From Verrucomicrobiales bacterium (GTDB taxonomy: Bacteria > Verrucomicrobiota > Verrucomicrobiia > Verrucomicrobiales > DEV007): DNA of 36,194 bases. The notes under the pieces were generated by a model. That model saw nothing but the letters and a program-made list of their open reading frames with translations, had not been told where the DNA came from and searched no databases. Each line of letters begins with the position of its first letter. Within the stretch, counting starts at the first letter, position 1. The stretch lies in contig JAEUHH010000035.1 of NCBI GenBank assembly GCA_016795505.1, forward strand, positions 1 through 36,194. Direction: 5' to 3'. The position numbers were made by a program, and so were the translations under genes. This document shows, piece by piece, positions 3,411-31,620 of the stretch.

Positions 3411-4574
3411 TCAATACACGTCCCTGCGGTAGCGCTTGTCTTTGCGCATTTGTTCGACGTAGGCCGCCGCTTCCTCGGTCGTTTTGCCGCCGTGGGTGGC
3501 GATCACGTCATGGATGGCCTTGTCCACATCGGGCGCCATGCGCTCGGCGTCGCCGCAGACATAGACGATGGCTCCCGACTCCAGCCAGGACCAGAAATCG
3601 GCTCCCTGCTCGACGATCTTGTGCTGAATGTAGATCTTCTCGGCCTGGTCGCGCGACCAGGCGGTGGTGACCCGGTCCAAAGTGCCGTCCTGGAGGTAGG
3701 TGTCCCATTCCTCGCCATAGAAATAGCAGGTGTCGGCATGGATCTCGCCAAAGAAAAGCCACGCCTTGCCCCTGGCCTGGGTGGCCTGCCGATGCTGGAG
3801 GAAGGCGCGGAACGGGGCGATGCCGGTGCCGGGGCCGATGAAGATCACCGGCACATCGTCCGAAGGATCGGGCAGGCGGAAGCCCTTGCCCGGATTGATG
3901 AAACAGGGCACCGGCGTGTGCTCGTCGGTGCGATGGGCGAGCCAGCTCGAGCAGACGCCCTTGCGCTGCCGGCCGTGGCTCTCGTATTGCACGACCGCGA
4001 CGGTGAGGTGGCACTCATTCGGCTTGGCGGCGAGGCTGGAGGCGATGGAGTAGAGCCGGATGTTCAGCTTTTTGAGAATGTCGACGAACTCCTGAGCCTC
4101 CCATTTCAGGCTGGGGAATTGCAGCAGGCAGTCGACGATTTCGCGCCCCCAGAGGAAGTGATTGAGGGCGTCCTTGTGATCGGGTTCGAGCAGGCGGGCC
4201 AGATCGGAGGCGGATTCACCGGCTTTTTCAACGAGTTTGTTGAGAAACTTCTTATCCGGCGTGGTGATGACGCAACTGTCGACGAGGGCCTGGCGGAGCG
4301 GCATGGCGACACCGTTGGCGTCGGTGACGATCTCGTCGCCGGTCAGGTGCAGGGCTTTCACGATGTCATCCGCGAGCGCGGGGTCGTTCTTCGGGAGCAC
4401 GGCGAGGGAGTCGCCCGGCGTGTATTCCATCCCGGAGCCCTGCAGGTCGATCTCGAAATGCCACGTCTCCTTTTCATCGCAGCCCTCCGTCAGCAGCCGC
4501 CGACGGACGAGGCGGGCGATGAGGGGATTTTTTCGGTTGAAGGCGATGGTGTTGGAGGTTGCTTCTTCACTCAT
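3411..4574 (-). CDS. cysJ: Sulfite reductase flavoprotein-type NADPH reductase lacking the flavodoxin domain
   Basis: A 387-residue diflavin-reductase C-terminal half. In order: FAD-binding RLYSIASS (173-180), FAD phosphate-binding GVCSSW (206-211), NADPH-binding GPGTGIAPFRAF (247-258), FFGE (274-277), the NADP phosphate-binding region with SRDQ (307-310), YVCGD (338-342), and a C-terminal YRRDVY whose last Tyr stacks on the flavin in CysJ. E. coli CysJ is about 600 residues and begins with an FMN-binding flavodoxin domain; here the protein starts directly at the connecting/FAD region, so that domain is absent rather than cut by the window. It should pass electrons from NADPH through FAD to a sulfite reductase or another acceptor; the partner is not in the window. 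It is transcribed divergently from the gene at 4725 across 150 bp. Confidence 0.87.
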   Translation of the reverse strand: MSEEATSNTIAFNRKNPLIARLVRRRLLTEGCDEKETWHFEIDLQGSGMEYTPGDSLAVLPKNDPALADDIVKALHLTGDEIVTDANGVAMPLRQALVDSCVITTPDKKFLNKLVEKAGESASDLARLLEPDHKDALNHFLWGREIVDCLLQFPSLKWEAQEFVDILKKLNIRLYSIASSLAAKPNECHLTVAVVQYESHGRQRKGVCSSWLAHRTDEHTPVPCFINPGKGFRLPDPSDDVPVIFIGPGTGIAPFRAFLQHRQATQARGKAWLFFGEIHADTCYFYGEEWDTYLQDGTLDRVTTAWSRDQAEKIYIQHKIVEQGADFWSWLESGAIVYVCGDAERMAPDVDKAIHDVIATHGGKTTEEAAAYVEQMRKDKRYRRDVY

Positions 4575-4724: not shown

Positions 4725-5582
4725 ATGTCGCTCCGCATCCTGTCCGCCGCCATCGTCCTTTTCTGGCTGGGCACCACCGGCTGGCTGGTTCGGACCCTCT
4801 GGCATCAGCGGGAGGGACACTTCACTCCAGTCGAGACGGAGGAGGCTTTGGGGGCCTTTTTCCGATGGAATGACACCACCGACCTGATCATTCTCGAGAA
4901 CGGCGTGAAGATCGGACAGATGAACATCGCCGGTCTGGAGGGGATCGACCGGGCGACGGGGAAGTTCTCGCGCGGTCTGTCCGCCTTCGCCACTCTCGAT
5001 GAGCCTGCCATGGAGCAGTTGGATTCCGCGGCTCTGACCGGCATGAATTGGCGACTCAGCGCCACCTTCAGCGAGGCGAATGCGCTCACCGGGCTGGAGA
5101 CCAAGATCCGGGTGCCGAGGCAGGATCTGGACGCGCGGCTGGAGTGGACCGGCGGCGACCAGTCCCTCGCCGCAAGGGCGACGGTCGGCGGGGTGGAATT
5201 GTATCGAGCCGGCCGGTTTTCCGACGAACCGGCTGGGAAAGACGCGGGCGCTGCCTCGCCGGCACCGCCCATCAGCCCAGCCCTCGCCGAGTCGATGCTC
5301 GGGTCCCTGGGGCTGCCCGGCTTTGGCGGGGACAGTGCCAGTGAACTGGGAGCGGCGTCCGGCTGGATGCCCCGGGTCGAGGCATCAAAAGGCACGCTGG
5401 AGAGCGGCGGGCGTTCCGTGCCGGTCTACCTGATCAAGCTGCGGCAGCCGCAGGGCGGAGACCCGGGCGACGGCATCCGAATTTACCTGTCCGAGGCGGG
5501 TGAACCCCTGCGGATCGACACAGGTCTCGGCTACGAAGCGATGGCCGAAGTGCTGCTCCCGGTCCGGCCCGGAAAACCCTGA
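4725..5582 (+). CDS. Membrane-anchored protein of unknown function, paired with an ABC ATPase
   Basis: A 285-residue protein with one N-terminal hydrophobic segment (about residues 4-24, LSAAIVLFWLGTTGWLVRTL) that is either a signal anchor or an uncleaved signal peptide. The rest is soluble and probably periplasmic, with an Ala/Pro-rich break near residues 167-185. No known motif is recognised. The ATG at 4725 was chosen because the TM begins immediately after it and the base before it is C, as in most starts here; an in-frame start at 4632 would add 31 residues of low-quality sequence. The ABC ATPase starts 16 bp after its stop, so the two are probably cotranscribed and may work together. 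Confidence 0.8.
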   Translation: MSLRILSAAIVLFWLGTTGWLVRTLWHQREGHFTPVETEEALGAFFRWNDTTDLIILENGVKIGQMNIAGLEGIDRATGKFSRGLSAFATLDEPAMEQLDSAALTGMNWRLSATFSEANALTGLETKIRVPRQDLDARLEWTGGDQSLAARATVGGVELYRAGRFSDEPAGKDAGAASPAPPISPALAESMLGSLGLPGFGGDSASELGAASGWMPRVEASKGTLESGGRSVPVYLIKLRQPQGGDPGDGIRIYLSEAGEPLRIDTGLGYEAMAEVLLPVRPGKP

Positions 5583-5598
5583 ATCTCCCCTCCCTCGC

Positions 5599-6354
5599 AT
5601 GATCGAAATCAACGACCTGTCAATGGACTACGGGAGGCTCCGCGCTCTGGAGCGCTTGAATTTGAGGATCGAACCAGGGGAATTCTTCGCTTTCCTCGGT
5701 CCCAATGCCGCGGGGAAGACGACGACCATCAAACTCCTGACCGGCCTGCTGCGACCGACCTCGGGCAGCGCCCGCATCTGCGGCTTCGACATTCAGACCC
5801 AGCCCATGGAGGCCAAGCGCCGGGTCGGCTACGTGCCGGATGTGGCGGAATTTTACGACAAACTCACCGCGATCGAGTTCATGTCCTTCATCGCCGAGCT
5901 TTTCGAGGTGCCGGTGGGGGAGGCGCGAAGACGGACCGGCGCCCTGTTCGAGCGATTCGCCCTGGTGCCCCACGCGTCCCAGCGGATTGAGAATCTCAGC
6001 CACGGCACCAAGCAGCGGCTGGCCATCGCCTCGGCTCTGTTGCACAACCCAGAGGTCATCATCATCGATGAGCCCATGGTCGGGCTTGATCCGATTAACG
6101 CCCGAGTGGTGAAAGAGGAGCTGAAAGCCCGCAGTGAGAGCGGGGTAACCGTATTTTTGTCCACTCACCTGCTCAACGTGGCTGAGGAACTGGCGGATCG
6201 CATCGGCATCATCCACCGGGGGCGCCTGATTGCCCTCGGCGGGGTGGGGGACCTGCGCCGCCGGCTGGCTCGGGAGACCGGGGATTTGGAGGCGATCTTC
6301 CTCGAATTGACTGCCGAAGCGGAGGCAGCCGGGGCGAATGTTCTGGAAAACTGA
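5599..6354 (+). CDS. ABC transporter ATP-binding protein (ABC-2/CcmA type)
   Basis: A 251-residue ATPase with all expected motifs: Walker A GPNAAGKTT (34-42), Q-loop region near VGYVPD, signature LSHGTKQ (133-139), Walker B VIIIDEP (153-159), D-loop GLDP (162-165) and switch histidine H190. The Ala-Ala in the Walker A loop and His in the signature are mild deviations, all catalytic residues being present. It resembles the ATPases of ABC-2 exporters such as CcmA. No multi-span permease gene lies on either side: upstream is a single-TM protein and downstream is exbB. The permease must be elsewhere, or the ATPase has another partner. There is no Shine-Dalgarno sequence before the ATG. Confidence 0.92.
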   Translation: MIEINDLSMDYGRLRALERLNLRIEPGEFFAFLGPNAAGKTTTIKLLTGLLRPTSGSARICGFDIQTQPMEAKRRVGYVPDVAEFYDKLTAIEFMSFIAELFEVPVGEARRRTGALFERFALVPHASQRIENLSHGTKQRLAIASALLHNPEVIIIDEPMVGLDPINARVVKEELKARSESGVTVFLSTHLLNVAEELADRIGIIHRGRLIALGGVGDLRRRLARETGDLEAIFLELTAEAEAAGANVLEN

Positions 6355-6448: not shown

Positions 6449-7249
6449 ATGAAATCTCTTCTTCGTTCACGTCTCGCTTGGTTGTCTGTTGGGCTCACGT
6501 CGGCCCTGTTGCTCTCTGCTCCCGACTTGTTTGCGGAAGAGGCCGCGGCCGCCGCGGCTCCCGCTGCGCAAAAGACGCTGTGGGATCTGGTGGTTCTGGG
6601 CGGTTGGGCCATGTGGCCTCTGGGGCTCTTCTCGGTGGCGATGATCACCCTGTTCGTCTACAACCAGATGCAGATGACGCGGAAGAAGTTCGTCCCGCCA
6701 ATCCTGAAGCAGTCCCTGCTGTCTCACATGTCCGAAGTGCGGGTGCGCTCGGCGATCGAAGAGGCGGCTGAAAGCCCCAGCTACCTGGGCCGTTTGTTTG
6801 CCACCTCGCTGCCTCATGTCGACGCCACCGAGGCTGAGACGCTCGGTCGCAGCCACGTGGAAGACGCCGCCGCCGACTTCATCGTGAAGGAAAACTCCAG
6901 CTACATGTCCTGGGTCGGTTACTTCGCCATTATCTCCCAGTCCGCACCGATGGTCGGTCTTCTCGGCACGGTGTCCGGGATGATCAAGGCATTCGAAACC
7001 CTCGGTGTGAGCGGTGGATCCGATCCGGCGAAACTGGCGAACGCGATTTCCGAGGCCCTCATCACGACCGCTGCCGGTCTGATCGTCGCCATTCCCTGTC
7101 TCTTCATGTTCTACTACTTCAAGAACACCTTTGCCAAATTGGTGTCGGAAGCGGAAGACGCACTGGCTCAGTCGTTGGACGCCGCCGTCGCCACTGTGAA
7201 TGCCGACCAGCAACTCGCCAAGGTGCCCGAGGGTATCGTGGAGGGTTGA
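6449..7249 (+). CDS. exbB: ExbB/TolQ/MotA-family proton channel protein with signal peptide
   Basis: A 266-residue protein. Residues 1-29 form a cleavable-looking signal peptide (LLLSAPDLFA/EE), which E. coli ExbB lacks but related PVC-group proteins often carry. TM1 lies near 47-71, TM2 near 155-177 and TM3 near 203-224. The diagnostic blocks are APMVGLLGTVSGMIKAF (166-182) and ISEALITTAAGLIVAIP (200-216). In this family a pentameric channel surrounds an ExbD dimer and converts proton flow into mechanical work across the envelope. Three exbD genes follow at 85, 45 and 65 bp spacings, indicating one transcription unit. No tonB or TonB-dependent receptor is present, so the driven partner is unknown. 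Confidence 0.93.
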   Translation: MKSLLRSRLAWLSVGLTSALLLSAPDLFAEEAAAAAAPAAQKTLWDLVVLGGWAMWPLGLFSVAMITLFVYNQMQMTRKKFVPPILKQSLLSHMSEVRVRSAIEEAAESPSYLGRLFATSLPHVDATEAETLGRSHVEDAAADFIVKENSSYMSWVGYFAIISQSAPMVGLLGTVSGMIKAFETLGVSGGSDPAKLANAISEALITTAAGLIVAIPCLFMFYYFKNTFAKLVSEAEDALAQSLDAAVATVNADQQLAKVPEGIVEG

Positions 7250-7334
7250 TGGAGCGTCCCGCCGCAGGGGCTGGTTCTCGAATGATGACCAGCTCTGACA
7301 GGCGGGGAAACCCACCCAAAAACCGGACTCTGAC

Positions 7335-7820
7335 ATGGCTTCTTCCAAACTCAGTCGCGCTCGCGCCGGTTCCTCCGAGGAGATGACGATGGACATCTCC
7401 TCCATGATCGATCTGGTCTTCCTCCTGCTGATTTTCTTCATGGTCAGTTCGCACCTGATCATCGTGCGGATCGACAAGAACGTCCGCCCGTCCGTGGTGA
7501 AAAACGCCGCCGTGGCAGAGGTCGCCACCGGCCGTATCGTGATCAACGTCTATGGTTTCGGTCTTAGGCCGGAACTGGCCGCGATGGAAGGCAAGATCTT
7601 CGACGCCAATGGCAACGAACTCGACACGTCCGAAGCGATTGAAGCGTTCGTCGACGAGCAGGCGACCATCATCCGCGAGAGCGAAGCGAACCTCACCCCG
7701 AAGCTCCATCTGCGGGCGGACTTCGCCACCGACACCCGTTTGATCAAGAAGGTGGTGCAGGCCTCCGCGAAAGCCGGCGTCATCGATGTGATCTTCGGCA
7801 GCTATGCCACGGAGAAGTGA
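7335..7820 (+). CDS. exbD: ExbD/TolR-family protein, copy 1
   Basis: A 161-residue ExbD-type protein: short cytoplasmic N-terminus, one TM at about 22-43 (SSMIDLVFLLLIFFMV) carrying the conserved proton-binding Asp at position 26, then a periplasmic domain. It differs from the next two copies: it lacks their shared DPKEADLG block after the TM, has SSHLIIVRIDKNVRPS there instead, and carries an insertion around FGLRPELAAMEGKIFD. It is therefore the divergent member of the trio. The 85-bp gap from exbB includes a short GCTGGT/ACCAGC inverted repeat, whose role is unknown. Confidence 0.92.
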   Translation: MASSKLSRARAGSSEEMTMDISSMIDLVFLLLIFFMVSSHLIIVRIDKNVRPSVVKNAAVAEVATGRIVINVYGFGLRPELAAMEGKIFDANGNELDTSEAIEAFVDEQATIIRESEANLTPKLHLRADFATDTRLIKKVVQASAKAGVIDVIFGSYATEK

Positions 7821-7865
7821 CGGTCTGCCGTCCCCCGATTCCGACCCCATTCCTTTTTTTCACCC

Positions 7866-8318
7866 ATGGCCAGACTCACCAAACGCCGGGCACCGGATGA
7901 ACCGGAACCACAGCTCGACATCTCGTCGATGATCGACGTGGCGTTCCTGCTCCTGATCTACTTCCTCGTCACCTCCTCGCTCGACCCGAAGGAAGCCGAC
8001 CTCGGCATTCAGTTGCCGACCACGGAATCCAGCGCTTCCACGGCGGTCGAGGTGGACCAGATGACGATCGAGATCAATGCCGAGGGCCACATCGTCGTCG
8101 ATTCGGAAGTGCTCGACACCGATCAGAACGACCGCAAGGTGCCGCTGCTCACCGCCAAAGTCACCGAGTATGCCCAGGCGGCCCAGCTCACCAACTCGCA
8201 GCCCGTCGTGATCGTGAAATCGGACGATGCCGCCAAAGGGCAGCGATTCGTCGATGTCCTCGACGCGCTGGCTGGAGCGAAGATCACCAGCGTCACGCTC
8301 ACCGGCTTCACCGAATAG
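7866..8318 (+). CDS. exbD: ExbD/TolR-family protein, copy 2
   Basis: A 150-residue ExbD-type protein with the TM at about 20-40 (SSMIDVAFLLLIYFLV) and the conserved Asp at position 24. The TM is followed by SLDPKEADLGIQLP, shared almost exactly with copy 3, which shows that these two are the closer pair from a tandem duplication. The C-terminal periplasmic region (AAKGQRFVDVLDALAGAKI) has the normal ExbD helix-strand pattern. It begins 45 bp after copy 1. It should assemble with the ExbB channel; whether the three ExbDs form mixed dimers or alternative complexes cannot be told from sequence. Confidence 0.93.
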   Translation: MARLTKRRAPDEPEPQLDISSMIDVAFLLLIYFLVTSSLDPKEADLGIQLPTTESSASTAVEVDQMTIEINAEGHIVVDSEVLDTDQNDRKVPLLTAKVTEYAQAAQLTNSQPVVIVKSDDAAKGQRFVDVLDALAGAKITSVTLTGFTE

Positions 8319-8383
8319 GGGCGGGCGCGATTCGGCTAGCAGGCTTTTCTCCCCCCAGAAACCTCCCCAACCCCGCCCAAGCC

Positions 8384-8872
8384 ATGAAACGCCGAACTCT
8401 CCGCGCCGCCGCTGCCGCCCCGGGAATGCCCGAGGCGCAGACTTCCCTCGATCTGTCGTCCCTCGTCGACATCGCCTTTCTGCTGCTCACCTTTTTTCTC
8501 CTCACGTCCACGCTGGATCCGAAGGAAGCCGATCTCGGGTTCCGCCTCGGTCTGCCCGGCATCGTCCAACCGCCGAAAAACTCGTTTGTGCCCGAGGAAG
8601 TGCGCGTCGAGGTCCGCGCCGACGGTTCGGTGTGGTTTCAGGGCGAAGCGGTGGAGTCCGGGGCGACCGATCGCCGTCAGCTTCCCGGCCTGCTGTCCGA
8701 ATTACGCGACGCCACTGCGGCCGCGGCGATGCTGGCACCCGACAAGGAAAACGGAGTGGTGGTTCGGGTCTCCGCTGACGATCAGGTGCGCGGACAGCGG
8801 CTCATGGATGTCCTCGACACGATCGCCGAGTCGGGCATCGCAACGATCCGGCTCGATGGCTTCGTGGATTAG
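8384..8872 (+). CDS. exbD: ExbD/TolR-family protein, copy 3
   Basis: A 162-residue ExbD-type protein with the TM at about 25-45 (SSLVDIAFLLLTFFLL) and conserved Asp at 29. The post-TM block TLDPKEADLGFRLGLP matches copy 2. The periplasmic part has an extra stretch (SGATDRRQLPGLLSELRDATAAAAM) compared with copy 2 and ends in QRLMDVLDTIAESGIATIRLDGF, paralleling the copy 2 C-terminus. It is the last gene before a 211-bp gap that precedes the TPR gene. That gap has no convincing terminator, so readthrough into the TPR gene is possible. Confidence 0.92.
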   Translation: MKRRTLRAAAAAPGMPEAQTSLDLSSLVDIAFLLLTFFLLTSTLDPKEADLGFRLGLPGIVQPPKNSFVPEEVRVEVRADGSVWFQGEAVESGATDRRQLPGLLSELRDATAAAAMLAPDKENGVVVRVSADDQVRGQRLMDVLDTIAESGIATIRLDGFVD

Positions 8873-9083
8873 CGTCCTCCAGCCTTTCTGCGTGGCATTG
8901 AAGGGTTTTCCCCGCCGCCGCGTCGAAATTTTTGCTCCGGACCGGCGGTTGCGCTGGCCAAAAGGAGCCTCCTTGTAGTAAAACAACCCTGTCAGTCAGT
9001 CATTTTCCCAGTTTTCACCCTTTTCCCCGGCCATCTGTCCCCACCACGGAATCACCCCCCCTATTTTCTTCCGCAGTTTGAAC

Positions 9084-12000
9084 ATGAGAACGACCATCTC
9101 CCGCCTCACTGACCCGTTTACCCGCTCTGGCCGTGGTTTGGCCCTTCTGGGATGCGCCTCCGGATGTCTCGCTCTGACCTGGCTGCCGTCGGGCTCCCTG
9201 GCCCAGGATGAGGAGGACAACAGCGTCGAGGGCCTCTACTCGAAGGCCGCGGAACTGGCCATCGCCGGCCAGTATGCCGAGTCCGTCAAGCTCTATGACA
9301 AGCTGTTCGACCTCGCCGGAGAGTTCCTCTGCGAAGACTTCGGCGCCCAGGCCGGCGGGATCGTGTTCGACTACGGCACCGTGCTCCTGCAGATGCAGGA
9401 TTGGCAAAAGGCCCGCGACGCCTTCGAGCGCTGCGTCAACTTCAAGGACAACGAGTGCAAAAAGGCCAAGATCCAGAACGAAAACACCCGTGCCGTGCTC
9501 GCCCTGTTCCAATGGGGATTTTGCGAAGCCCAACTCGGCAATCACGCCCGCGCCATCGAGCTCTACGACCAGTATCTGGAAAAGGCCAAAGCCGATCCGA
9601 CTGAACTGGCCAAAGTGCGCAACGCCTTCAAACTGCGCCGCGGATCGTCGCTGATGAACGTGGGCCGTGCCGACGAGGGCATCGCCGAGATCAACGAACT
9701 GTTCGAGAAGCGCGTCGAGTGGCAGGTCACCCCGCAGTTCCTCGTGCAGGGGCTGTTGGAACTCGGACTCGGCTGGGTGGAACTGGCCCGCAAGGGAGCC
9801 CAGACGCCGAATGCGGTCGACCAGATCGAGGCGCAGGCCCAGCTCTTCCTCGACCGGAATGCGGCGGCGATCGAGGTCAGCCCGCTGGACAAATTCCGCT
9901 TTGGCTTCATCGACCGATTCAAGAAGCTCGGCTTCGAGTCCTCCGAGATCGGCATGCAGACCCTGGCCCTCCGCTTCTACTCCATGGTGCCGACGCTGGA
10001 GGATGTGGAATACGATGTGCAGTCCCGCCTCGCCCTCGTTCCCGGCGGTGCCGTGCCGGCGGCTTTCCAGCAGATCCTCGACCAGATCGCCGAGCAGAAA
10101 AAGCGCCCCGTTCCCGGTGATGTCGAGATTCAGCGCCTCTCCGCCCGCGCCTACGAGTTGCTGGGCAACTACATCGCCCCGCGCGAGATTTACCGTTACC
10201 TCGCCGAGACCTATCCCACCATCGAGAAAGACCGCCGTGCCGAGATCCTGCACGAGGCGGCCCGCTTTTCCACCATGCTGGGCGACTATTCCTCGGCCCA
10301 GTTTTACGGCGAGACTTTCATGGCCGAACTGGCCGATCACAAGCTGCGGGACAATGTCTCCGTCTTCATGCTGCAGTCGCTGTTCTCCTCGCAGCAGTTC
10401 GATCAGGTCGTCACCATCTGCGAATCGGTGCGCAGCCGCTACGAATTGGGCAGCGAGCAGCGCGAACTCCCCGACGCGCTTTACGGTCTGGCCCTGTATT
10501 CCCTGAGGAAGTATCAGGAGGCCATCGCCGCCTTTGACGAATATGCCAAGACCTATCAGGAAGGCTCGAACCGCGAGATGGTCATGTATCACCGCGCCAA
10601 TACGCGCATGATCCTGCGCGAGTTCCGCACCGCCGCCGAGTTGGCCCGCGAGTTCCAGCAGCAGTTCCCCAAATCGGAAAAATTCTCCGACCTTTCCATC
10701 GCCGACGAGGCGCTCTGCCGCTTCAATTTGGAAGACTACACCGCCGCCATCGCCCTTGCCGAGCGGTTGGCAACGGAATTCCCCGAATCCCAGGCGCTCG
10801 ACCGGGTGCTGAACATCAAGGGCGACAGCCTCATCGTCCGCAGCAGTGCGGTCGAGGGAGAAGACGACGCCGCCAAAGCCGAGGTCGCGAAAATGCGCGA
10901 AGAAGCGCTCCAGACCTACCTCAAGGCAGTGGAGACGGGCAAAGCCCTCGAAGCGACGGGCAAGAATGCCGAAGTGCACAAGACTGCCACCGCCGAGGCG
11001 ATTGCCAAGGCCGTCGACATCTACGTGACCGATGGCGACAACCTGAAAGCCGCTCAGGATGAGGCCGGTGCCCTCGAAAAATACAAGCTGGCTGTCGCGC
11101 TCTACGATTCCTTCTTCCCGAACTATGCCGGCACCTTCTACGAGCCGCAGGTTTCGGTTTATACAGTGTCCGCCTTGGAGTCGGTCGGTCGTGGCGAGGA
11201 CGCCTTGACGCAGATGGAAAAGATGATCATCGTTCTAGGCAGCCGCACCGGCGAGGACATGGACCTCGACCTCCTGCGCCGCTCCATCGGCTCCTACTCG
11301 GAGGCGTCCGTCCGCATCCGCGGCGAGGAAAAGACGCTCGAAGTGCTCGGCGCCTTCCCCGGTCTCGATCCGACGAACCAGGCCCTGTTGACCTGGCTCA
11401 AGATGCAGAAGGTCATCGTCCTCCAGGCCATGCGCACCAAGCTGGCCAAGGATGCGCCGGAGTTGGCTTCGATCAATCAGCGCATCGACAAGGAGTTCCA
11501 GGAAATGGACCAGTTCGAGGTGAAGAGCCTCTCCGAGATCGCGCTGAAGATGATCGGCGACTATCTCTACGGCAGCGACAACCCCTTCCTCGCGGTGCGT
11601 TACTATGAGGAACTGCTGGTGCGTTCGAATCCCGAAGCCGACCAGTTCAAGGCCTCCGCCGACCTCGGTCTCGGCCGCATTGAGGCCCGGCGCACCGACG
11701 CCGAGTCGCGTCGCACGGCCCGCGACCGTTTCCGCCGCATCACCGACACCTACAAGGACAAGGACCTGACCCCGGCCGCCACTTTCGAGTTGGGCAAACT
11801 GGCCGTCGTCACCCAGGATTGGGAGGAAGCCAAGACCGCCTTCCAGACCATCAACCAGAACAAGCGCTGGCTCACCCCGGTGGAGCGCGCCGAGGCCACC
11901 TTCCGCTTCGGCCAGACGTTGGAAGCGCTCGGCGACATCGGCGGCGCCTTCCAGGCCTATACCGCCGCGTGGGTGACCTATGCGAAGCACCACGAGTGGT

Positions 12001-12293
12001 CCACCCAGTCTCTGGAAAAATGGCTTCAACTCGGATTCAAGGATGCCGAGACCAACATCACGGATCCGATCGCCCTGCGGGCGAAGAAAATGGAATTCTA
12101 CAAGCAGTTGAAGCGCAAGCTGATCGAGTGGTCGCAGTTCCCCGAGACGGAGGCACTCCAGCGCCTGCGACTGCGCCTCCCCGACATGCGGACGGAACTC
12201 GGCATCACGCCCGAGGAGGAAAGCCAGATCAACTTCCAGATGGGTCTCAATCCCGACGGCACTCTGCCCGAGGAGCCGGGCAAGAAGAAGTGA
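9084..12293 (+). CDS. Large secreted tetratricopeptide-repeat protein
   Basis: A 1069-residue protein with a signal peptide (about 1-40, LALTWLPSGSLA/QD); an internal LLGC could be read as a lipobox, but hydrophobic sequence continues after it. The mature protein is almost entirely degenerate TPR/TolA-Pal-YbgF-type helical repeats, for example LYSKAAELAIAGQYAESVKL near residue 51 and later AARFSTMLGDYSSAQFYGE and ALYSLRKYQEAIAAFDEY. No enzyme motif is seen. The ATG at 9084 was preferred to an in-frame TTG two codons earlier. It follows exbB-exbD-exbD-exbD and precedes another secreted protein. The likely role is a periplasmic or outer-membrane scaffold receiving force from the ExbB/D motor; this is inference from order and fold. 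Confidence 0.9.
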   Translation: MRTTISRLTDPFTRSGRGLALLGCASGCLALTWLPSGSLAQDEEDNSVEGLYSKAAELAIAGQYAESVKLYDKLFDLAGEFLCEDFGAQAGGIVFDYGTVLLQMQDWQKARDAFERCVNFKDNECKKAKIQNENTRAVLALFQWGFCEAQLGNHARAIELYDQYLEKAKADPTELAKVRNAFKLRRGSSLMNVGRADEGIAEINELFEKRVEWQVTPQFLVQGLLELGLGWVELARKGAQTPNAVDQIEAQAQLFLDRNAAAIEVSPLDKFRFGFIDRFKKLGFESSEIGMQTLALRFYSMVPTLEDVEYDVQSRLALVPGGAVPAAFQQILDQIAEQKKRPVPGDVEIQRLSARAYELLGNYIAPREIYRYLAETYPTIEKDRRAEILHEAARFSTMLGDYSSAQFYGETFMAELADHKLRDNVSVFMLQSLFSSQQFDQVVTICESVRSRYELGSEQRELPDALYGLALYSLRKYQEAIAAFDEYAKTYQEGSNREMVMYHRANTRMILREFRTAAELAREFQQQFPKSEKFSDLSIADEALCRFNLEDYTAAIALAERLATEFPESQALDRVLNIKGDSLIVRSSAVEGEDDAAKAEVAKMREEALQTYLKAVETGKALEATGKNAEVHKTATAEAIAKAVDIYVTDGDNLKAAQDEAGALEKYKLAVALYDSFFPNYAGTFYEPQVSVYTVSALESVGRGEDALTQMEKMIIVLGSRTGEDMDLDLLRRSIGSYSEASVRIRGEEKTLEVLGAFPGLDPTNQALLTWLKMQKVIVLQAMRTKLAKDAPELASINQRIDKEFQEMDQFEVKSLSEIALKMIGDYLYGSDNPFLAVRYYEELLVRSNPEADQFKASADLGLGRIEARRTDAESRRTARDRFRRITDTYKDKDLTPAATFELGKLAVVTQDWEEAKTAFQTINQNKRWLTPVERAEATFRFGQTLEALGDIGGAFQAYTAAWVTYAKHHEWSTQSLEKWLQLGFKDAETNITDPIALRAKKMEFYKQLKRKLIEWSQFPETEALQRLRLRLPDMRTELGITPEEESQINFQMGLNPDGTLPEEPGKKK

Positions 12294-12312
12294 TTCCGCA
12301 GGGGCACCATTC

Positions 12313-12356
12313 CGATGCAACAGGGTACGATCGACGATCAAACAGGGTATCATCAG
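12313..12356 (+). repeat. Dispersed 22-bp paired repeat, copy A
   Basis: Two adjacent 22-bp units, 12313-12334 and 12335-12356, each with the core AACAGGGT preceded by CGATnn and followed by a degenerate nnSATCrn end. The second unit ends two bases before the ATG of the next gene, so it occupies the position where a ribosome binding site would be. It is related to the copies at 21081, 23848 and 36008. Confidence 0.85.
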
Positions 12357-12358
12357 CC

Positions 12359-13558
12359 ATGAAAGCAATCCGACTTTTCACCGTTTCACTGACCGTGGCC
12401 GCCGTGGCCGCGCCGGCTTTCCTGAATTTCGACCAAGCGTCAGCCCAGGCCCAGGCGCCGGCCGCCGCCGCGGCTCCAGCCGTCAAGCGTGAGTTGGGCG
12501 CCATGATCCTGCTGTCCGACGGCAGACGCCAGCGTGGCTTCGTCCAGGATACCAACGACCGCGGCCTGCTGTTCTCACTGGTCGAAGGGGCGCCGGGCAC
12601 GGGTATGGCCTGGCAGACGCAGGTGGTGGATGTGGCTTTCGACGAGTCCGATGAGATCATGCGAGAGGCCCGCGCGGTCTATTCGCAGGGCAACTACGAG
12701 GTGGCGGTGCAGTTGTTCGACGGCATCGCGAATTCCTTCGCCCACGTCGCCTGGGTGCCGCGGAGTTTTTCCACCGAAGCCCGCTACTACCAGCTCGAGT
12801 GCCTGCGGCTGCTCGGTCGTTGGGAGGAAATGGGGCCGCTGCTCCAGACGCCCACCGCCCAGGCCATTCCGACGAAGCTGCCGGAGTTCTTCCAGCGGCA
12901 GTTCAAGCTGAACCAGCTCTGGGCACAACTCGGTGCAGGGCAGCTCGATGGCATCAAGACCACCCTCGCCGGTCTGGAGAAGCCGGTGGTGGGCCAAGCC
13001 AAACTGCTGCCCTCGCCCAGCCTCCAGACGCTGCCGCTGCGTGAGCTGGTGCAGATCACTTTCTTCAGCGCCAAAGCCAACGAGGCCGCCGGCAATCTCG
13101 ACCGGGCTCTGGCGGACTACTACCGCACCTTCGCGCTGACTTTCTCCAATCAGAAAGTCCTCAGCGATCTGTCGATGAAGGCCGCGCTGTCCATCCAGTC
13201 GCGTCTGCCTGCGGTGGCGGAAACCAAAAGCCCCATGGCGATGCGCCAGATCCAGAGTCTGGCCTATCTCTACAAGAATTCGTTCGGCAAGGGTGAGATC
13301 GAGCCGGCCTATGACCCCTTTGCGGTGAAACCCGAGCTGCCCAAGCCGCCGGCACCGAAGGAAGAGGAAAAGCCGGCCGCACCCGCCGATGGAGCGGCAC
13401 CGGCGGCGGATGCCGCCGCCAAGGGCGCGGCTCCGAAGGCCGACGCCGCCAAGGGGGAAGCCCCGAAGGCTGATGCCAAAGGCGAGGCGCCCAAAGCCGA
13501 TGCCGCTCCGAAAGGGGAGGCGCCCAAGGCCGACGCGCCGAAGGCCGGGGCGAAGTGA
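12359..13558 (+). CDS. Secreted protein with TPR-like region and Lys/Ala/Pro-rich repetitive tail
   Basis: A 399-residue protein. The N-terminus is a signal peptide (about 1-29, NFDQASA/QA). A short beta-rich section (MILLSDGRRQRGFVQD) is followed by a helical, TPR-like region starting near residue 99 (REARAVYSQGNYEVAVQLFD). The C-terminal 75 residues, from about 326, are low-complexity with repeated GEAPKADA/KGAAPKADA blocks, resembling a wall- or envelope-spanning tail. The start is fixed by the signal peptide and lies two bases after a 22-bp repeat pair. It lies 65 bp after the large TPR gene and probably belongs to the same exbB/exbD-TPR module. Function is otherwise unknown. Confidence 0.88.
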   Translation: MKAIRLFTVSLTVAAVAAPAFLNFDQASAQAQAPAAAAAPAVKRELGAMILLSDGRRQRGFVQDTNDRGLLFSLVEGAPGTGMAWQTQVVDVAFDESDEIMREARAVYSQGNYEVAVQLFDGIANSFAHVAWVPRSFSTEARYYQLECLRLLGRWEEMGPLLQTPTAQAIPTKLPEFFQRQFKLNQLWAQLGAGQLDGIKTTLAGLEKPVVGQAKLLPSPSLQTLPLRELVQITFFSAKANEAAGNLDRALADYYRTFALTFSNQKVLSDLSMKAALSIQSRLPAVAETKSPMAMRQIQSLAYLYKNSFGKGEIEPAYDPFAVKPELPKPPAPKEEEKPAAPADGAAPAADAAAKGAAPKADAAKGEAPKADAKGEAPKADAAPKGEAPKADAPKAGAK

Positions 13559-13590: not shown

Positions 13591-13600
13591 TCAGGCGACG

Positions 13601-13673
13601 TAGGTGGACTGGGACTCGAACCCAGGACCAACGGCTTAAAAGGCCGCTGCTCTACCGACTGAGCTATCCACCC
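13601..13673 (-). tRNA. trnK: tRNA-Lys (anticodon UUU)
   Basis: On the minus strand a complete cloverleaf can be folded. The acceptor arm pairs GGGTGGA with TCCACCT, position 1 forming a G-U pair with position 72. The D arm contains AGCTCAGTCGGTAGAGC, the anticodon stem is GCGGC/GCCGT with loop CTTTTAA (anticodon TTT), and the T arm contains GGTTCGAGTCC. The discriminator is A. CCA is not encoded after it (the genome reads CGT), so CCA must be added by the nucleotidyltransferase. It is close to E. coli tRNA-Lys in the D and anticodon arms. Confidence 0.95.
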
Positions 13674-13819: not shown

Positions 13820-16012
13820 CTATTGGTCCCGCTTGAGGACCGAGAGCAGGCTGGCGTAGTCGTCCGTCCAGACGCGGAAGCCGGAGGGGATGGCGGGCTT
13901 TTCCCAGGTCCCCGATGCGATGAGGGGGAGGATCTGGCTTTCCTCCCGTGCTAGCAGGGCCCAGAGGGAACTCATGCCTTCAACCGAGGCGGGATCGTGA
14001 TTTTCCACCACCCGATGGCGGGTGCGGCAAGCCACACCCAGCGAGTCGGCCAGGGCGGCGATGGCGGGGCGCAGATCGAAGTGGCGATTCGAAATGTGGA
14101 AGAGCAGGCGGCCGTCCGGCTTCAATTTCTGAAAATACAGGGCCATGGCCTCCCGGGTCGCGAGGTGCAGCGGGATGGCGTCGGAGGAAAAGGCGTCCAC
14201 GATGAGCAGGTCGTATTGGCCATCCGCTTCCTCGGCGAGTTTTAGCCGGCCGTCGCCGAGAATGATGCGGCAGGTCGCCTGGCTGTCTTTCAGATAGGTG
14301 AAATGGCCGCTGTCGCGGGCGAAATGGACCGACGACGGATCAATCTCGAAGAAGTCCCACTGGGAGCCCTCGGTGCCGTAGGCGGCGAGGGTGCCCACGC
14401 CGAGACCGATCACGCCGACGTGCGCGAGCGGACGGACGGACTGGAGGGCGTCGATGATCTGGCCGCACGGGCCGCCGCGGCTGAAGTAGGTGGTGGGCTG
14501 GCGACGGGCCGCGGGATCGAGCACTTGGGAGCCGTGGAGCGTGGTGCCGTGCATCAGTTGGATCGAACGCCCCTCGTCGTCCATCTGCACGCGGTAGATC
14601 CCGAAAAAGGAGCGCTCGGTGTCGAGGGTGTGATCCGCAAACCGTTTCGCTGAAAGCGCAGTGGCGAGGAACAGGGCCACCCCGACGGTGAACAGGCGCG
14701 GGCTGATGAGCGAGGCTCCGTAGCAGGCCAGCGTGGCGGGCATCAGGAGGACGGTCACGGGGAAATCCGGCCACTTTTCGCCCAACCAGAAAGCCCCGGC
14801 GGCCAGCACGGCGGCGGCGGCAGGCACAAGCCAGCGCTTTCGCCCGACCGGAGCGCCGGTGGCGCTGGATGGGTCGCGGCGGGGCGTCAGAAAGAGGGCT
14901 GCGATGAGTCCGATGGGGTATTCCAGCACCGTGGTGAAAACCAGCGGGGCCACCAAAGCGGTGAAGGCGCCTCCGACCACGCCGCCGACCGACAGGGCGA
15001 GGTAGAAGGAGGTCAGGCTGGCGGCTGGCGGTCTTTCCGCGGCGAGACGACCGTGGCACAGGCAGGCGAGTAGGAAAAACGCCGTCAGATGCACGATCAG
15101 GATCAGCCCGGTGGGCTCCGTCGCCCGAGCCGCGAGCAGCAAAGCCAGTACGACTCCGGCCAGCGGCACCGCGCGTGCCAGAGCCCGATCACCGATCCAG
15201 GGGCGTTTGGCGAAGGCATTGATGAAGGAGAGCAGATACAGGCCCAGAGGCGGCAGCCACAACAGAGGCATCGAGGCGATGTCAGTGGTGAGGTACTGCG
15301 TCGTGCTCAGCATCAGGCTGGAGGGAATCGCGGCATAGGCGATCCAGCGCAGCCATTGGGACCGGGTCACGACCGGTTCGTCGGCGGCAGGGGACTTGGT
15401 CACGGCGGCGGCGGTTCCCTTCGCAGCGCGGGTCGCCTGCCAGCCGGCCAGGATCACGGTGCCGATGAGCAGGATGTATCCCCAGGCCCACCACGCCGAT
15501 TGCCGGGCGAGCGGCAGGTGCGGCTCGATGAGCAGGGGATAGGCGAGCAGGGAGCCGAGGCTGCCGACATTGCTCGCCGCGTAGAGGAAATAGGGATCGC
15601 GGGCGGCCGGATCGCCCGTTTCCGCGAACCATCGCTGGAGCAGGGGGCTGGTGGTGGATACGGCGAAAAAGGGCACTCCCACGGAAACGGTCATCAGACC
15701 CAGCAGCCACCAGACGTGGGCCTGACCAGCCGGCGGGGACCAGTCATCGGGCAACGCGATCGGCATCGCCAGAGCGGCGAGCCCGATCACGAGGCCATGC
15801 ACGATGACCTGGCGCCGCAGGGGCATCCGGGTGGCGAGGCCATGGGCATAGGCGTAGCCGAGGAGGAGGGCGCTTTGAAAAAACAGCATCGCCGTATTCC
15901 ACACCGCTGGAGTGCCCCCGAGCAGGGGCAGGGCCAGGCGGGCAAACAGGGGCTGCACGCTGAAAAGGAGCGCGGCGGAGAGGAGGATGGGCGGGATGAA
16001 CCACCGGATCAT
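13820..16012 (-). CDS. Fused multi-pass membrane protein with spermidine synthase-like domain
   Basis: A 730-residue fusion. Residues 1 to about 455 contain many hydrophobic spans, beginning MIRWFIPPILLSAALLFSVQ. From about 461 (RSFFGIYRV) the protein becomes a spermidine-synthase/methyltransferase fold: nucleotide-binding VGVIGLGVGTLAAYG, acidic FFEIDPSSV, LGDGRLKL, and the aminopropyltransferase-like LLIVDAFSSDAIPLHLAT. This is the architecture usually called a fused MFS/spermidine synthase. Substrate and product are not established for such fusions; polyamine aminopropyl transfer is only a guess from the fold. It lies 47 bp downstream of the HAD gene in a short AT-rich spacer, and could be cotranscribed with it. 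Confidence 0.88.
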   Translation of the reverse strand: MIRWFIPPILLSAALLFSVQPLFARLALPLLGGTPAVWNTAMLFFQSALLLGYAYAHGLATRMPLRRQVIVHGLVIGLAALAMPIALPDDWSPPAGQAHVWWLLGLMTVSVGVPFFAVSTTSPLLQRWFAETGDPAARDPYFLYAASNVGSLGSLLAYPLLIEPHLPLARQSAWWAWGYILLIGTVILAGWQATRAAKGTAAAVTKSPAADEPVVTRSQWLRWIAYAAIPSSLMLSTTQYLTTDIASMPLLWLPPLGLYLLSFINAFAKRPWIGDRALARAVPLAGVVLALLLAARATEPTGLILIVHLTAFFLLACLCHGRLAAERPPAASLTSFYLALSVGGVVGGAFTALVAPLVFTTVLEYPIGLIAALFLTPRRDPSSATGAPVGRKRWLVPAAAAVLAAGAFWLGEKWPDFPVTVLLMPATLACYGASLISPRLFTVGVALFLATALSAKRFADHTLDTERSFFGIYRVQMDDEGRSIQLMHGTTLHGSQVLDPAARRQPTTYFSRGGPCGQIIDALQSVRPLAHVGVIGLGVGTLAAYGTEGSQWDFFEIDPSSVHFARDSGHFTYLKDSQATCRIILGDGRLKLAEEADGQYDLLIVDAFSSDAIPLHLATREAMALYFQKLKPDGRLLFHISNRHFDLRPAIAALADSLGVACRTRHRVVENHDPASVEGMSSLWALLAREESQILPLIASGTWEKPAIPSGFRVWTDDYASLLSVLKRDQ

Positions 16013-18515: not shown

Positions 18516-20543
18516 ATGGCCAATAGCAAGGATAAGAAACCCGCCGACGACTCAGGGTCGTTCGAGGAGCAGAAAAAGAACGCCCTCAATCTCTTTGAGA
18601 AAGAGGAGCGCCGCGGTCAGCGCAAGAACCGGGGTTCGGAGGTGGAGGCCACGGCTTTCGTTCCGCTCACCCAGACGGATGGAGGCATCGTCTCCACGCC
18701 CCAGTCGCAGGCAGCCCCCGAGGAGCCGGACCCGGAATCTCCCGGCGTGGTCGAGATCGAAGGCCAAAAGGTCATCAACATCAAGCCGCCGATCATCGTC
18801 AAGGATCTCGCCGAATTGATGGGCCTCAGACCCTTCAATCTGATCAAGGACCTGATGGCCTACGACGTGTTCGCGAACCCGGCGACCGCCATCGAGCCGG
18901 ACATTGCCTCCAAGCTCTGCGAACAGCACGGCTTCGTTTTTGAGCGCGAGAAGCGGGAAAAAGGCGCCGGAGTTCATAAGGTTGAAGAGGTTATCGAAGA
19001 GCCGGAAGCTCCGGTCGAGGTCGAGGAAGACCTGCTCAAGCCCCGTCCGCCGGTGGTGACCTTCATGGGTCACGTGGACCATGGGAAAACGTCTCTTCTC
19101 GACTACTACCGCGGCTCCCGCGTCGTCGAGGGCGAGGCGGGTGGCATCACCCAGCACGTCGGCGCCTACGGAGTCGAGCGTGAAGGGCGTCGGATTACCT
19201 TCATCGACACGCCCGGCCACGAAGCGTTCACCGAGATGCGCGCCCGCGGGGCGAACGTCACCGACATCGTGGTGTTGGTGGTCGCTGCCGACGACGGACT
19301 CATGCCGACCACGCTGGAGGCCATGGACCACTGCAAGGCGGCCAACGTCACCATCGTCGTGGCGATCAACAAGTGCGACCTGCCCCGCGCCGATGTGAAC
19401 CGGGTGAAAGCCCAGCTCCAGGAAAAGGGCCTTTCGCCTGAAGATTGGGGCGGGACGACGCTGTGCGCCGAGGTTTCCGCCAAAACTGGCCAGGGATTGG
19501 ACGAACTCTTCGAGAGCATCTGTCTCCAGGCCGAAATCATGGAGCTGAAGTCGAATCCCTCCGGCCCGGCCCGTGGCGTCGTCATCGAGGCCCGCAGCGA
19601 GCCTGGCAAAGGCCCCACCGCGACCATCATCGTCCAGTCCGGCACGCTCAAAGTCGGCGCGCCCTTCATCTGCGGCAAATATTACGGCAAGGTGAAAGCC
19701 CTCGTCGATGACCGGGGCAAGCGCCTCACCGACGCCGGTCCGTCCACACCGGTCGAAGTCATCGGTTTCGCCGACGTGCCGAATGTCGGTGATGAACTGG
19801 TCCAAATGGACTCCGAGCGCCATGCCAAAAAGCTCAGCGAGGAGCGCCTCGAGATCGCCCGGCAGGAAAAGCTCAAGCCGCGCGAACGGTCTGCCCTGGA
19901 GACTCTGTTCCGCAACATCGAGGAGGGCACCAAGAAGACGCTCAACATCATCCTCAAGTGCGACGTGCAGGGCTCGGTCGAAGCCATCGCCAATTCCCTG
20001 CGCGACGTCAAGTCCGACAAGATCAATCTGGAACTCATCCGCACCGACGCCGGCCCGATCACCGAGTCCGATGTCATGCTCGCGAGTGCCTCGGACGCCA
20101 TCCTCATCGGCTTCAATACCAAGGTGGAGGCCAAAGCCGTCCCCATCGTCAAGCGCGAGGGCGTGCAGGTGAAGCTCTTCTCCATCATCTACGAACTCAT
20201 CGATCAGGTGAAGGAGGCGATGCTCGGCATGCTCGACCCCGAGACCCGGCAGCGCGTCATCGGCCACGCCGAAGTCCGGGAAGTCTTCAAGACCTCGTCC
20301 GGCCGCGTCGGCGGCTGCTACGTCACCGATGGCCGCATCGACCGCAAGGCCCGCGCCCGCGTGCTGCGCGGAGGCCAGCCGGTCTATGATGGTGGCTTTG
20401 TCACCCTGCGCCGGTTCAAGGATGACGTCAACGAGGTCAAGAACGGTCTCGAATGCGGCATCAAGCTCGGCGACTTCAACGACTACATGGTCAAGGACAT
20501 CATCGAGTGCTACGAACTCGATCGCGTCGCCCAGACGCTCTGA
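18516..20543 (+). CDS. infB: Translation initiation factor IF-2
   Basis: A 675-residue IF-2 when started at the ATG at 18516; an in-frame TTG at 18447 would add 23 residues. The charged N-terminal part is short, followed by the IF2-N motif [17 protein letters not shown] (about 99-115). The GTPase domain has G1 GHVDHGKT (185-192), G3 DTPGHEAF (231-238) and G4 NKCD (285-288). The later domains include the C-terminal fMet-tRNA-binding region ([16 protein letters not shown]). It places initiator tRNA on the 30S subunit. The 170-bp gap from nusA contains no ylxR-like gene, only a 26-codon frame at 18363-18443. Start choice is the main uncertainty, as neither candidate has a Shine-Dalgarno sequence. 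Confidence 0.96.
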
Positions 20544-20633
20544 TACCGCCCGCGCGAGCCTGACGACAGTCCCGCCGGGCATGGTCGTCCGGCGGTCCCG
20601 GCGTCATTTCACCCCGCAACCCACCACTTCAAC

Positions 20634-21053
20634 ATGAGCAACCGACTGGCCAGAGTCAGCGAACTCCTCAAGCGCGAACTGGGGCAGTGTCTCGAGCGGG
20701 ATTTCCACTTCGACGACGTGCTCGTCACCGTGCACCATGTGGACGTCTCGCCCGATCTGCGCAATGCCCACGTCTATGTCGGCATCGTGGGCGATGAAAA
20801 GCGACGCAGTTCCGTGATCGACCTGCTCAACCGCAAGCGTGGCCAGATCCAGAGCACGGTGATGAAGCGCGTCGTGCTCAAGTATACCCCGCACCTGCAC
20901 TTCCTGTTCGATGGCTCCGTCGAGCGTGGCGTGCGCGTGGTCAACCTGCTCGACGAGATCGCCGCCGGCCAGCCGCCGTTGCTGCCCGACGAGGATGAGG
21001 AGGACGATGTCGAATACTACGACGAGGAGTCGACCTACACCGAAAGCGAATAA
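20634..21053 (+). CDS. rbfA: Ribosome-binding factor A
   Basis: A 139-residue RbfA: the N-terminal helix MSNRLARVSELLKRELG, the KH-like core with VTVHHVDVSPDLRNAHVYV and the helix leading to KYTPHLHFLFDGSVERGVRV, which is the family's hallmark end of the domain. RbfA binds the 30S subunit during maturation of the 5' end of 16S rRNA. The last 25 residues form a strongly acidic tail (DEDEEDDVEYYDEES) beyond the conserved core. It is 90 bp after infB and 72 bp before the nrnA-type gene, with a dispersed repeat in the latter gap. Confidence 0.95.
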   Translation: MSNRLARVSELLKRELGQCLERDFHFDDVLVTVHHVDVSPDLRNAHVYVGIVGDEKRRSSVIDLLNRKRGQIQSTVMKRVVLKYTPHLHFLFDGSVERGVRVVNLLDEIAAGQPPLLPDEDEEDDVEYYDEESTYTESE

Positions 21054-21080
21054 GCCGGCAGGAGTGCCGGTTTCCGGACC

Positions 21081-21124
21081 AACCCTGTTGGATCGGAGAT
21101 CGAACCCTGTTTCATCGGAATCTG
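21081..21124 (-). repeat. Dispersed 22-bp paired repeat, copy B
   Basis: Two adjacent 22-bp units at 21081-21102 and 21103-21124, reading AACCCTGTT on the plus strand, so the AACAGGGT core is on the minus strand. The pair ends one base before the ATG of the DHH phosphoesterase gene. Relative to transcription it is inverted compared with copy A, yet it occupies the same place in front of a start codon. Confidence 0.85.
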
Positions 21125-21125
21125 C

Positions 21126-22133
21126 ATGACTCCCGCCAACGCCAGTTTCCAGACCCTGATCGGCCTGCTCGAGGGAGCCGCCACGATCGGCATCGTCAGC
21201 CACCGCCGACCGGATGGCGACGCCCTCGGCTCCTGCCTCGCGCTGGGAGCCTCGCTGGCCGCAATCGGGAAGACTGTCCACATCGTCAATGACGACCCCG
21301 TGCCCGATGGCCTGGGCTTCCTGCCCGGCAGCGAAGCCATCCGCGTCGCCGCGACCGTCGTCGCCGGAGGCGCGTTGCCGGTCGATGTCCTCGTCTCCCT
21401 CGACGCCGCCGGCGCCGATCGGCTCAGCGAGACGGCCTGGGCGGCTTTTGCTCTGGCGGAGGGAGGGGTGCGCATCAACATCGACCACCACATCAGCAAC
21501 ACCCGGTTTGCCGACTACAACTACGTCGATGCCATCTCTCCCGCGACCGGCCAGATCATTTACGAACTGATCGAGGCCGCCGGCTGGCCGCTGCCGGAAG
21601 GCGCCCGGGTCGCCCTGTATGCCGCCATCTCCACCGATACCGGTTCCTTCCGCTATCCCAGCGCGACCGGGCAGACTTATCGCATCGCCGCCAGCCTCAT
21701 CGATGCCGGGCTTGATGTCGGCGAGGTGAATCGCCAGCTTTACGAGAGCTATCCGCTGCGCCGCCTGCTGCTGCTGCGCGACCTGCTACAGGATCTCGAG
21801 ATCCATGCCGATGGCAGGGTCGTGGCGGTGAAATTGACCCGCCGGATGGCCGAGGCGGCCGGATTGCAGGCCGGCGACACCGAGGGCATCATCGACGTGA
21901 TTCGCTCGGTCGATTCCGTCATTGTCGCCATCCTGTTCGAGGAGATGGAGGACGGAAAGATCCGCGTCAGCTCCCGGAGCAAATCCCCCCGCGCCGATGT
22001 CGGCGCCATCTGTGCCGTTTTTGGGGGTGGCGGACACACTCTGGCTGCCGGGACCCGCATGGCGGGGCCCATCGATGCGGCCGCGACCCGATTTTTGCAT
22101 GAAGTATCCCAAAGACTCGATGGACTCGATTGA
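21126..22133 (+). CDS. nrnA: DHH-family phosphoesterase, NrnA-type oligoribonuclease/pAp phosphatase
   Basis: A 335-residue DHH/DHHA1 protein. Metal-binding motifs appear in order: SHRRPDGDALGS (25-36), LDAAGADR (92-99), the DHH motif NIDHHISNT (118-126) and STDTGSFRY (169-177). The C-terminal DHHA1 substrate-binding glycine motif GGGGHTLAAG is at 300-309. Members degrade very short RNA oligonucleotides and dephosphorylate 3'-phosphoadenosine-5'-phosphate. Its position between rbfA and truB is a standard arrangement. The start is fixed by MTPANASFQ just before motif I; there is no Shine-Dalgarno sequence because a 22-bp repeat pair abuts the ATG. Its 3' end overlaps the truB start. Confidence 0.93.
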   Translation: MTPANASFQTLIGLLEGAATIGIVSHRRPDGDALGSCLALGASLAAIGKTVHIVNDDPVPDGLGFLPGSEAIRVAATVVAGGALPVDVLVSLDAAGADRLSETAWAAFALAEGGVRINIDHHISNTRFADYNYVDAISPATGQIIYELIEAAGWPLPEGARVALYAAISTDTGSFRYPSATGQTYRIAASLIDAGLDVGEVNRQLYESYPLRRLLLLRDLLQDLEIHADGRVVAVKLTRRMAEAAGLQAGDTEGIIDVIRSVDSVIVAILFEEMEDGKIRVSSRSKSPRADVGAICAVFGGGGHTLAAGTRMAGPIDAAATRFLHEVSQRLDGLD

Positions 22134-22833: not shown

Positions 22834-22859
22834 ATGACGAATCACACGGCGCGCTGCCC

Positions 22860-31332: not shown

Positions 31333-31620
31333 GGTTTCGTATCAGTAGTGTTTGTTTTAGTAACGAACGGTTGTGGGTCCTCCGATGATTGGTTTTAGCT
31401 GAATTATCAGTCAGTCGACAACAAAAATCTGACTGCCGATCACAGTTTTTCCCGGGTAACGGTCCGGATGACTTCGACTCATGAACCGACCGTAGGAACG
31501 GCGCCCATGTCCGCCCGGTCCGGGGCTCCAGGCTTGGCAGTTCGCAGCCTTCCGTTTACCATGGCGTCCTGCTTCGTATCCCGCTCTGATTGCAAGAGCT
31601 GGATCTTCCAATTTTGCCAA
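31333..31620. promoter_or_regulatory. 288-bp divergent intergenic region
   Basis: This lies between the divergent helix-hairpin-helix and FG-GAP genes. It holds a 7-bp inverted repeat, CAGTCAG (31408-31414) and CTGACTG (31429-31435), separated by a 14-base AT-rich loop. No gene or clear -35/-10 promoter was recognised. A frame from 31468 continues into the FG-GAP gene, but that N-terminal extension has no signal peptide character. Confidence 0.35.

Follow-up and report, generated by a model that had tools for sequence, protein, structure and literature searches.

By second-hand accounts, mucin accumulation in Akkermansia muciniphila requires the MUL genes and a periplasmic complex; large mucin pieces are reported to be imported, and some enzymes are marked as Mul1A-associated. 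Marine Akkermansiaceae take up labelled fucoidan, and a recent study (PMC13174399; 2026) states that aquatic Akkermansiaceae lack MUL1 synteny and suggests that gut lineages acquired the locus as an adaptation specific to mucin. A second body of work concerns envelope motors of the Planctomycetota–Verrucomicrobiota–Chlamydiota (PVC) superphylum: a section of PMC12204202 (Mol Biol Evol 2025) places a force transducer of the von Willebrand factor A (vWA) type beside tetratricopeptide repeat (TPR), tolQ and paired tolR genes, and proposes docking via a conserved histidine. Among open-licence PMC papers we found none that links MUL1 to these arm-bearing motors, and the import of large polysaccharides by Verrucomicrobiota is poorly understood. 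Here we describe six open reading frames, all on the + strand at 6449-13558 of a 36,194-nucleotide stretch of DNA (the window; contig C86 of a 6.55 Mb Verrucomicrobiales genome in 120 contigs), which encode an ExbB, three ExbDs, a large TPR protein and a secreted protein, and which have the gene order of the Akkermansia MUL1 locus with one exbD added.

A MUL1-like locus in another family

The run opens with exbB (6449..7249; 266 aa), which encodes a MotA/TolQ/ExbB proton-channel protein (PF01618, 94.5 bits, E 5e-27) that passes its Pfam cut-off. Behind it lie exbD1 (7335..7820; PF02472, 40.4 bits, E 4e-10) and exbD2 (7866..8318; 83.7 bits, E 2e-23), which belong by tree to the ExbD1 and ExbD2 subfamilies of ExbD/TolR proteins, and a third ExbD gene, exbD3 (8384..8872; 64.8 bits, E 1e-17), whose product keeps the membrane aspartate; all three exceed the Pfam ExbD cut-off of 25.4 bits. 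The fifth gene (9084..12293) encodes a large secreted protein of 1069 aa that matches several Pfam TPR families and corresponds to the TPR protein in the Akkermansia locus, and the last (12359..13558) a Mul1B-like secreted protein of 399 aa with a tail rich in proline, alanine and lysine. Signal peptides, including the one at the N terminus of ExbB, were called by eye rather than by a predictor. Promoter and terminator scans gave signal no greater than in shuffled sequence. An earlier note, made from the sequence alone, had described six genes in this order, with a TPR protein of 1069 residues and without tonB; the open reading frame coordinates and Pfam matches bear this out, and no TonB is encoded within the run.

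In the reference loci from Akkermansia and its kin (L088-L091), MUL1 is a single run of exbB-exbD-exbD-TPR-Mul1B, and the window has this run plus one exbD. The A. muciniphila counterpart of the last protein, which scores 281 bits against the Mul1B profile, likewise ends such a run. Besides the order, the window and the A. muciniphila MUL1 share kinship of their TPR and Mul1B-like proteins and the lack of a linked tonB or arm (a membrane-anchored, TonB-like protein, described below). They differ in the third ExbD of the window, in its Mul1B match below the curated cut-off, in its ExbB, which keeps a glutamate in the third transmembrane helix (TM3) where the aligned Akkermansiaceae MUL1 ExbBs have valine, and in its place in another family, for which mucin is an unlikely substrate. 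The earlier note had pointed to an ExbB/ExbD/TPR locus in Akkermansia tied to mucin accumulation, and this link holds given the Mul1B match, below cut-off as it is, and the same order in A. muciniphila; its proposal of a new envelope motor gives way to a variant of a described locus.

To see how far the order recurs, we took one locus each from 20 of 54 genomes with a Mul1B match, 20 loci from among the best TPR matches, and five loci titled Akkermansia or Akkermansiaceae, these last from a scan with patterns of the A. muciniphila TPR protein that reaches close kin only. The first two sets were selected by a Mul1B or a TPR match and nothing else, which makes the motor genes beside them an independent result. 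The order exbB-exbD-exbD-TPR-Mul1B was present in 13 of the 20 Mul1B-picked loci; another 4 had TPR-Mul1B-exbB-exbD-exbD, one of them (L085) with three exbDs, and in three a membrane-anchored arm came next. The TPR-picked loci gave the MUL1-like order in 12/20, three of these with three exbDs, and that order in 4/20 more, but with exbD and TPR separated by one or two arms; the remaining 4 were partial, with L103 and L110 at contig ends, L108 having one ExbD and no ExbB, and L109 having no motor. All five titled loci had the order. Within the window's family it was found in seven genera, or eight counting G322. The earlier note had asked whether the order is conserved across the PVC superphylum: it is kept in many relatives, with exceptions that are weighed below. 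Two loci stand apart. The genome of L104 (G322:C272), a MUL1-like locus, carries the label of the window's family, yet L104 groups with Akkermansiaceae; it has a second TPR-Mul1B pair behind it and may represent contamination or transfer. In L106 (3344-6482; G288) the TPR gene is split into two overlapping open reading frames, through a frameshift or an assembly error.

The Mul1B profile was also run against a phylum sample of 288 genomes. It matched at E 0.001 in the 54 genomes mentioned and exceeded its cut-off in 27, all in family f2, a label that we take to denote Akkermansiaceae, as g2 denotes Akkermansia: 21 of the 22 Akkermansia genomes and 6 of the 9 from other genera of that family. 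The full order is present in three of these nine (G237, G240 and G277), whose Mul1B proteins score 221-237 bits. These loci suggest that MUL1 may not have originated in gut lineages only; PMC13174399 takes its definition of MUL1 from the primary description of the locus. Since the same order occurs in another bacterial family, with an extra motor part, the machine probably predates mucin feeding and serves uptake more broadly. If it is indeed old and widespread, the published suggestion of a gut-specific adaptation would need revision. The MUL1 locus type itself is already known; what is added here is its order outside Akkermansia and in a second family, and the tie to arm-bearing PVC motors.

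The ExbB channel and three ExbDs

The window ExbB retains the threonine of LGTV and the TM3 glutamate (in SEALITTA), which we take to be equivalent to Glu176 of E. coli ExbB. It aligns with ExbB chains in the Protein Data Bank (PDB) across the last two membrane helices, and its EAL stretch is aligned in an ExbB chain of known structure. Across 30 same-order loci, the window included, the LGT threonine is present in 30/30 ExbBs and the membrane aspartate in 64/64 ExbDs; L092 was excluded from these counts, as its contig is equal in length to that of L082 and the two are probably one and the same. With the order recurring in other genomes and the aspartate kept throughout, the locus is beyond chance. 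Valine or leucine stands in place of the TM3 glutamate in MUL1-linked ExbBs from Akkermansiaceae and in a few from elsewhere (L068, L072, L075-L079, L102, L104 and L107). ExbD1 and ExbD2 are separate, old subfamilies (support 99/95), and each of the 30 loci in the tree has one of each. Because the two subfamilies travel together, we infer that their members pair. The window ExbD2 had no PDB match at E 0.01.

The third ExbD is present in 4/4 genomes seen of the window's genus and absent from nine other MUL1-like loci of the window's family (L095-L099, L101, L102, L104 and L107); among the MUL1-like loci fetched, it is known only from this genus. The four same-genus ExbD3s form a single clade (100/100) nested in the ExbD2 lineage, and the additional ExbD of L085 is a separate copy in the tree. 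Ratios of non-synonymous to synonymous substitution (dN/dS) of 0.17-0.38 over six pairs from the four genomes point to purifying selection on ExbD3; they lie mostly above the ExbD1 and ExbD2 values and are rough, dS being greater than 1. The earlier note had seen that two of the ExbDs have DPKEADLG in common, which holds for ExbD2 and ExbD3, and had taken them for a recent pair. A recent origin is ruled out by their 41% identity, by a proportion of synonymous differences (pS) of 0.65 and by the support for the ExbD3 clade. ExbD3 is a retained paralogue, an old and diverged offshoot of ExbD2.

Proposed function of the locus

By homology, the function with the best support is import of large glycans. 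We think it more likely than not that the six genes specify a proton-driven envelope machine of MUL1-like type, by which long chains of glycan or glycoprotein are brought through the outer membrane to the periplasm. In such a machine ExbB would be the proton channel and ExbD1 with ExbD2 (or, in the window's genus, ExbD3) the paired axle, a heterodimer in a putative 5:2 assembly. Force would pass to the large periplasmic TPR scaffold and the Mul1B-like partner, and these would help the chains, presumably the substrate, to cross the outer membrane. ExbD3 would most likely allow an alternative axle pairing, one suited to a different partner.

Several observations weigh against this reading. The Mul1B-like protein scores 55.2 bits (E 6e-15) against the Mul1B model NF052542, whose curated cut-off is 75 bits, so that it is Mul1B-like and not a member of the family. 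Identities are low: 16-24% between the Mul1B-like protein and 10 relatives, and 15-23% between the TPR protein and the other 12 rows of its alignment. No outer-membrane pore was found among the 15 window proteins scanned. TPR-Mul1B pairs also occur without a complete adjoining motor where the stretch would allow one, in L080, L081 and L083 from Akkermansiaceae (the 3 of the 20 Mul1B-picked loci with TPR-Mul1B and no motor in the stretch) and in L108 and L109; a linked motor may thus not be obligatory for TPR-Mul1B.

An orthologue profile matches the window TPR protein at 1000 bits, the window row itself being part of the profile. Structural models of the two partners, built on shallow alignments (6 rows for the TPR protein, 5 for the Mul1B-like protein), give an all-helical superhelix for the former (mean predicted local distance difference test score (pLDDT) 68) and, for the latter, a short beta part, TPR-like helices and a disordered tail (mean pLDDT 59). 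The TPR model had 192 PDB matches at E <=0.001; the 50 listed are TPR or similar helical scaffolds with TM-scores <=0.3, and a Campylobacter flagellar periplasmic scaffold is among the matches at E 4e-6. The Mul1B-like model had no PDB match at E 0.001. For the pair, structure comparison returned general TPR superhelices only, with low TM-scores.

Arm-bearing sister modules

The genome that contains the window has two sister modules, exbB-exbD-exbD-arm-TPR-Mul1B-like on contig C23 and TPR-Mul1B-like-exbB-exbD-exbD-arm on contig C20. An arm consists of one membrane helix with a histidine, a glycine-rich linker and a tip, and the histidine is present in 12/12 linked arms examined. Three kinds of tip were seen: a toroid with weak squalene-cyclase-type matches, a vWA domain (24.7 bits in L111 against a cut-off of 23.8, and weaker in other arms) and a PA14-like tip (L084, E 0.018, below cut-off). 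A candidate vWA arm occurs in the own-genome module L032, where the VWA match reaches only E 0.03. The locus L112 (6391-8633) has tandem arms with similar helix and linker and different tips, one vWA-like and one of unassigned type, so that the tip looks exchangeable. In L113 (2555-9031; G000:C82) an HSP70 gene is followed immediately by the genes for two arms whose N-terminal part, ahead of the membrane helix, is TPR-like.

The sister modules share the arm with the PVC vWA force-transducer motors as these are described in the section of PMC12204202, whereas the window locus has no linked arm: it has the TPR gene, the tolQ-type gene and the unlike tolR-type pair, and it lacks a linked vWA protein with a transmembrane histidine. 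The modules found here also show toroid and perhaps PA14-like tips, as well as Mul1B-like proteins, neither of which is named in that section. Through them, the transfer of force from such motors to the outer membrane can be addressed directly.

The presence of an arm beside exbB and exbD in the sister modules raises the possibility, which we regard as doubtful, that the window motor works through unlinked TonB-like arms on contig C82 (transmembrane histidine and glycine-rich linker, with either a toroid or a vWA tip). Three histidine-bearing arms are encoded there, at 18705-20930, 21042-23030 and 43765-45804. Moreover, in 14 genomes the TM3 glutamate of the MUL1-linked ExbB and the histidine of an unlinked toroid arm were both present in 7, both absent in 7 and mixed in 0, a count that leaves out G305 (no unlinked arm of >300 columns), G024 and G063 (ExbB not from the same handle) and G215, G268 and G178 (no MUL1-linked ExbB fetched), as well as further arm matches in G277 and G240 that were not fetched. 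On the TPR tree a single change can be enough to give this pattern (80% of 200 bootstrap trees); it may thus reflect one event and argues for such coupling only weakly. Contig C82 also has an exbB/exbD/tonB set of its own (31531-32864), approximately 8.5 kb from the arms, and with 10 ExbB-type places in the genome the arms may serve another motor. Among 31 Akkermansiaceae genomes, Mul1B over cut-off and an arm (a match to any arm at E 1e-40, with <=4 candidates scored per genome) occurred together in 17, Mul1B alone in 10, an arm alone in 4 and neither in 0. This co-occurrence does not support orphan toroid arms as a dedicated MUL1 transducer. In the phylum sample an arm match was present in 139/288 genomes, far more than have Mul1B.

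These results would be consistent with arm coupling that is retained in the window's family but disappeared on the way to Akkermansiaceae. More speculatively, and with odds that we put well short of even, the locus may belong to a general large-glycan machine of Verrucomicrobiota that predates mucin feeding, built from one ExbB, paired unlike ExbDs, a giant TPR scaffold and exchangeable TonB-like arms (toroid, vWA or PA14-like) in place of TonB. ExbD3 would then be a second gear, and the loss of arm coupling in Akkermansiaceae, where the ExbB glutamate and the arm histidine are gone, would have left an arm-free motor. If such an old, widespread motor exists, the mucin locus of a gut symbiont would be a single adaptation within a general uptake system, which would be open to testing in environmental relatives.

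Ton, Tol-Pal and gliding motors

The channel proteins and key residues of the locus are those of ExbB-ExbD-TonB, and the locus could be an ordinary Ton energiser, with TonB encoded elsewhere carrying force to TonB-dependent receptors. The genome of the window does encode two TonB_C proteins and has four receptor plug matches, and TonB_C exceeds its cut-off in 34/36 relatives (12/12 and 22/24; the exceptions are G286 and G298). However, both TonB genes of the genome adjoin their own exbB/exbD, and MUL1-like loci differ from ExbB-ExbD-TonB in their two to three ExbDs and large TPR partner and in the absence of a TonB from the locus; TPR and Mul1B partners are foreign to a Ton system. G286, whose genome is 97% complete, keeps the full locus (L071) without TonB_C over cut-off or an arm at E 1e-40, a hint from one incomplete genome that the motor may need neither. 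We consider a Ton role unlikely.

Less likely again is a Tol-Pal-like system of envelope maintenance or division, with the TPR protein in the role of CpoB/YbgF. The TPR protein scores 68.7 bits against the YbgF model, short of the cut-off of 90.1 that its A. muciniphila counterpart exceeds with 93.2, and the best NCBIfam model for ExbB is TolQ; yet generic TPR models match many TPR proteins, and the TolQ and TolR scores are far under their cut-offs. A Tol-Pal system would have TolA, TolB and Pal genes with tolQR, and none of the three was found in the Pfam scan, which covered 15 window proteins and not the rest of the genome.

We regard as very improbable a motor that, like Myxococcus AglRQS, drives movement of the cell over surfaces or of polymers along its own surface. 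AglRQS is described as one MotA-type with two MotB-type proteins, a feature shared with the window-type loci, and as also moving carbohydrate polymer over spores. The window locus, however, has TPR and Mul1B partners and suggests uptake rather than gliding, and the nearest kin of assigned role is a locus for nutrient uptake, in a bacterium that the literature calls non-motile. Of the two roles that the earlier note had offered, uptake of large polymers fits the MUL literature, at second hand, and movement gained no evidence, Glt-like gliding partners not having been searched for.

Flanking genes

Upstream of exbB lie a gene for a membrane-anchored protein without a Pfam family (4725..5582, + strand) and one for an ABC ATPase (5596..6354, + strand; PF00005, E 3e-27). 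In the window's family, 8 loci (L093-L099 and L106) likewise have homologues of both ahead of exbB, the ABC ATPase gene being within 100 bases of exbB in 7 and 1.5 kb away in L099; neither was found in L101, L102 or L107. The membrane-anchored protein was considered as a candidate arm and rejected, as it has no conserved membrane histidine in 9 aligned rows. Directly behind the locus is a tRNA-Lys (13600-13673, - strand), followed by a gene for a fused MFS/spermidine-synthase-type protein (13820-16012, - strand; NF037959, 54 bits, cut-off 40). Further upstream, a sulfite-reductase flavoprotein-like protein (3411-4574, - strand) matches the C-terminal part of CysJ, and its homologues occur in seven related loci (L093-L098 and L106).

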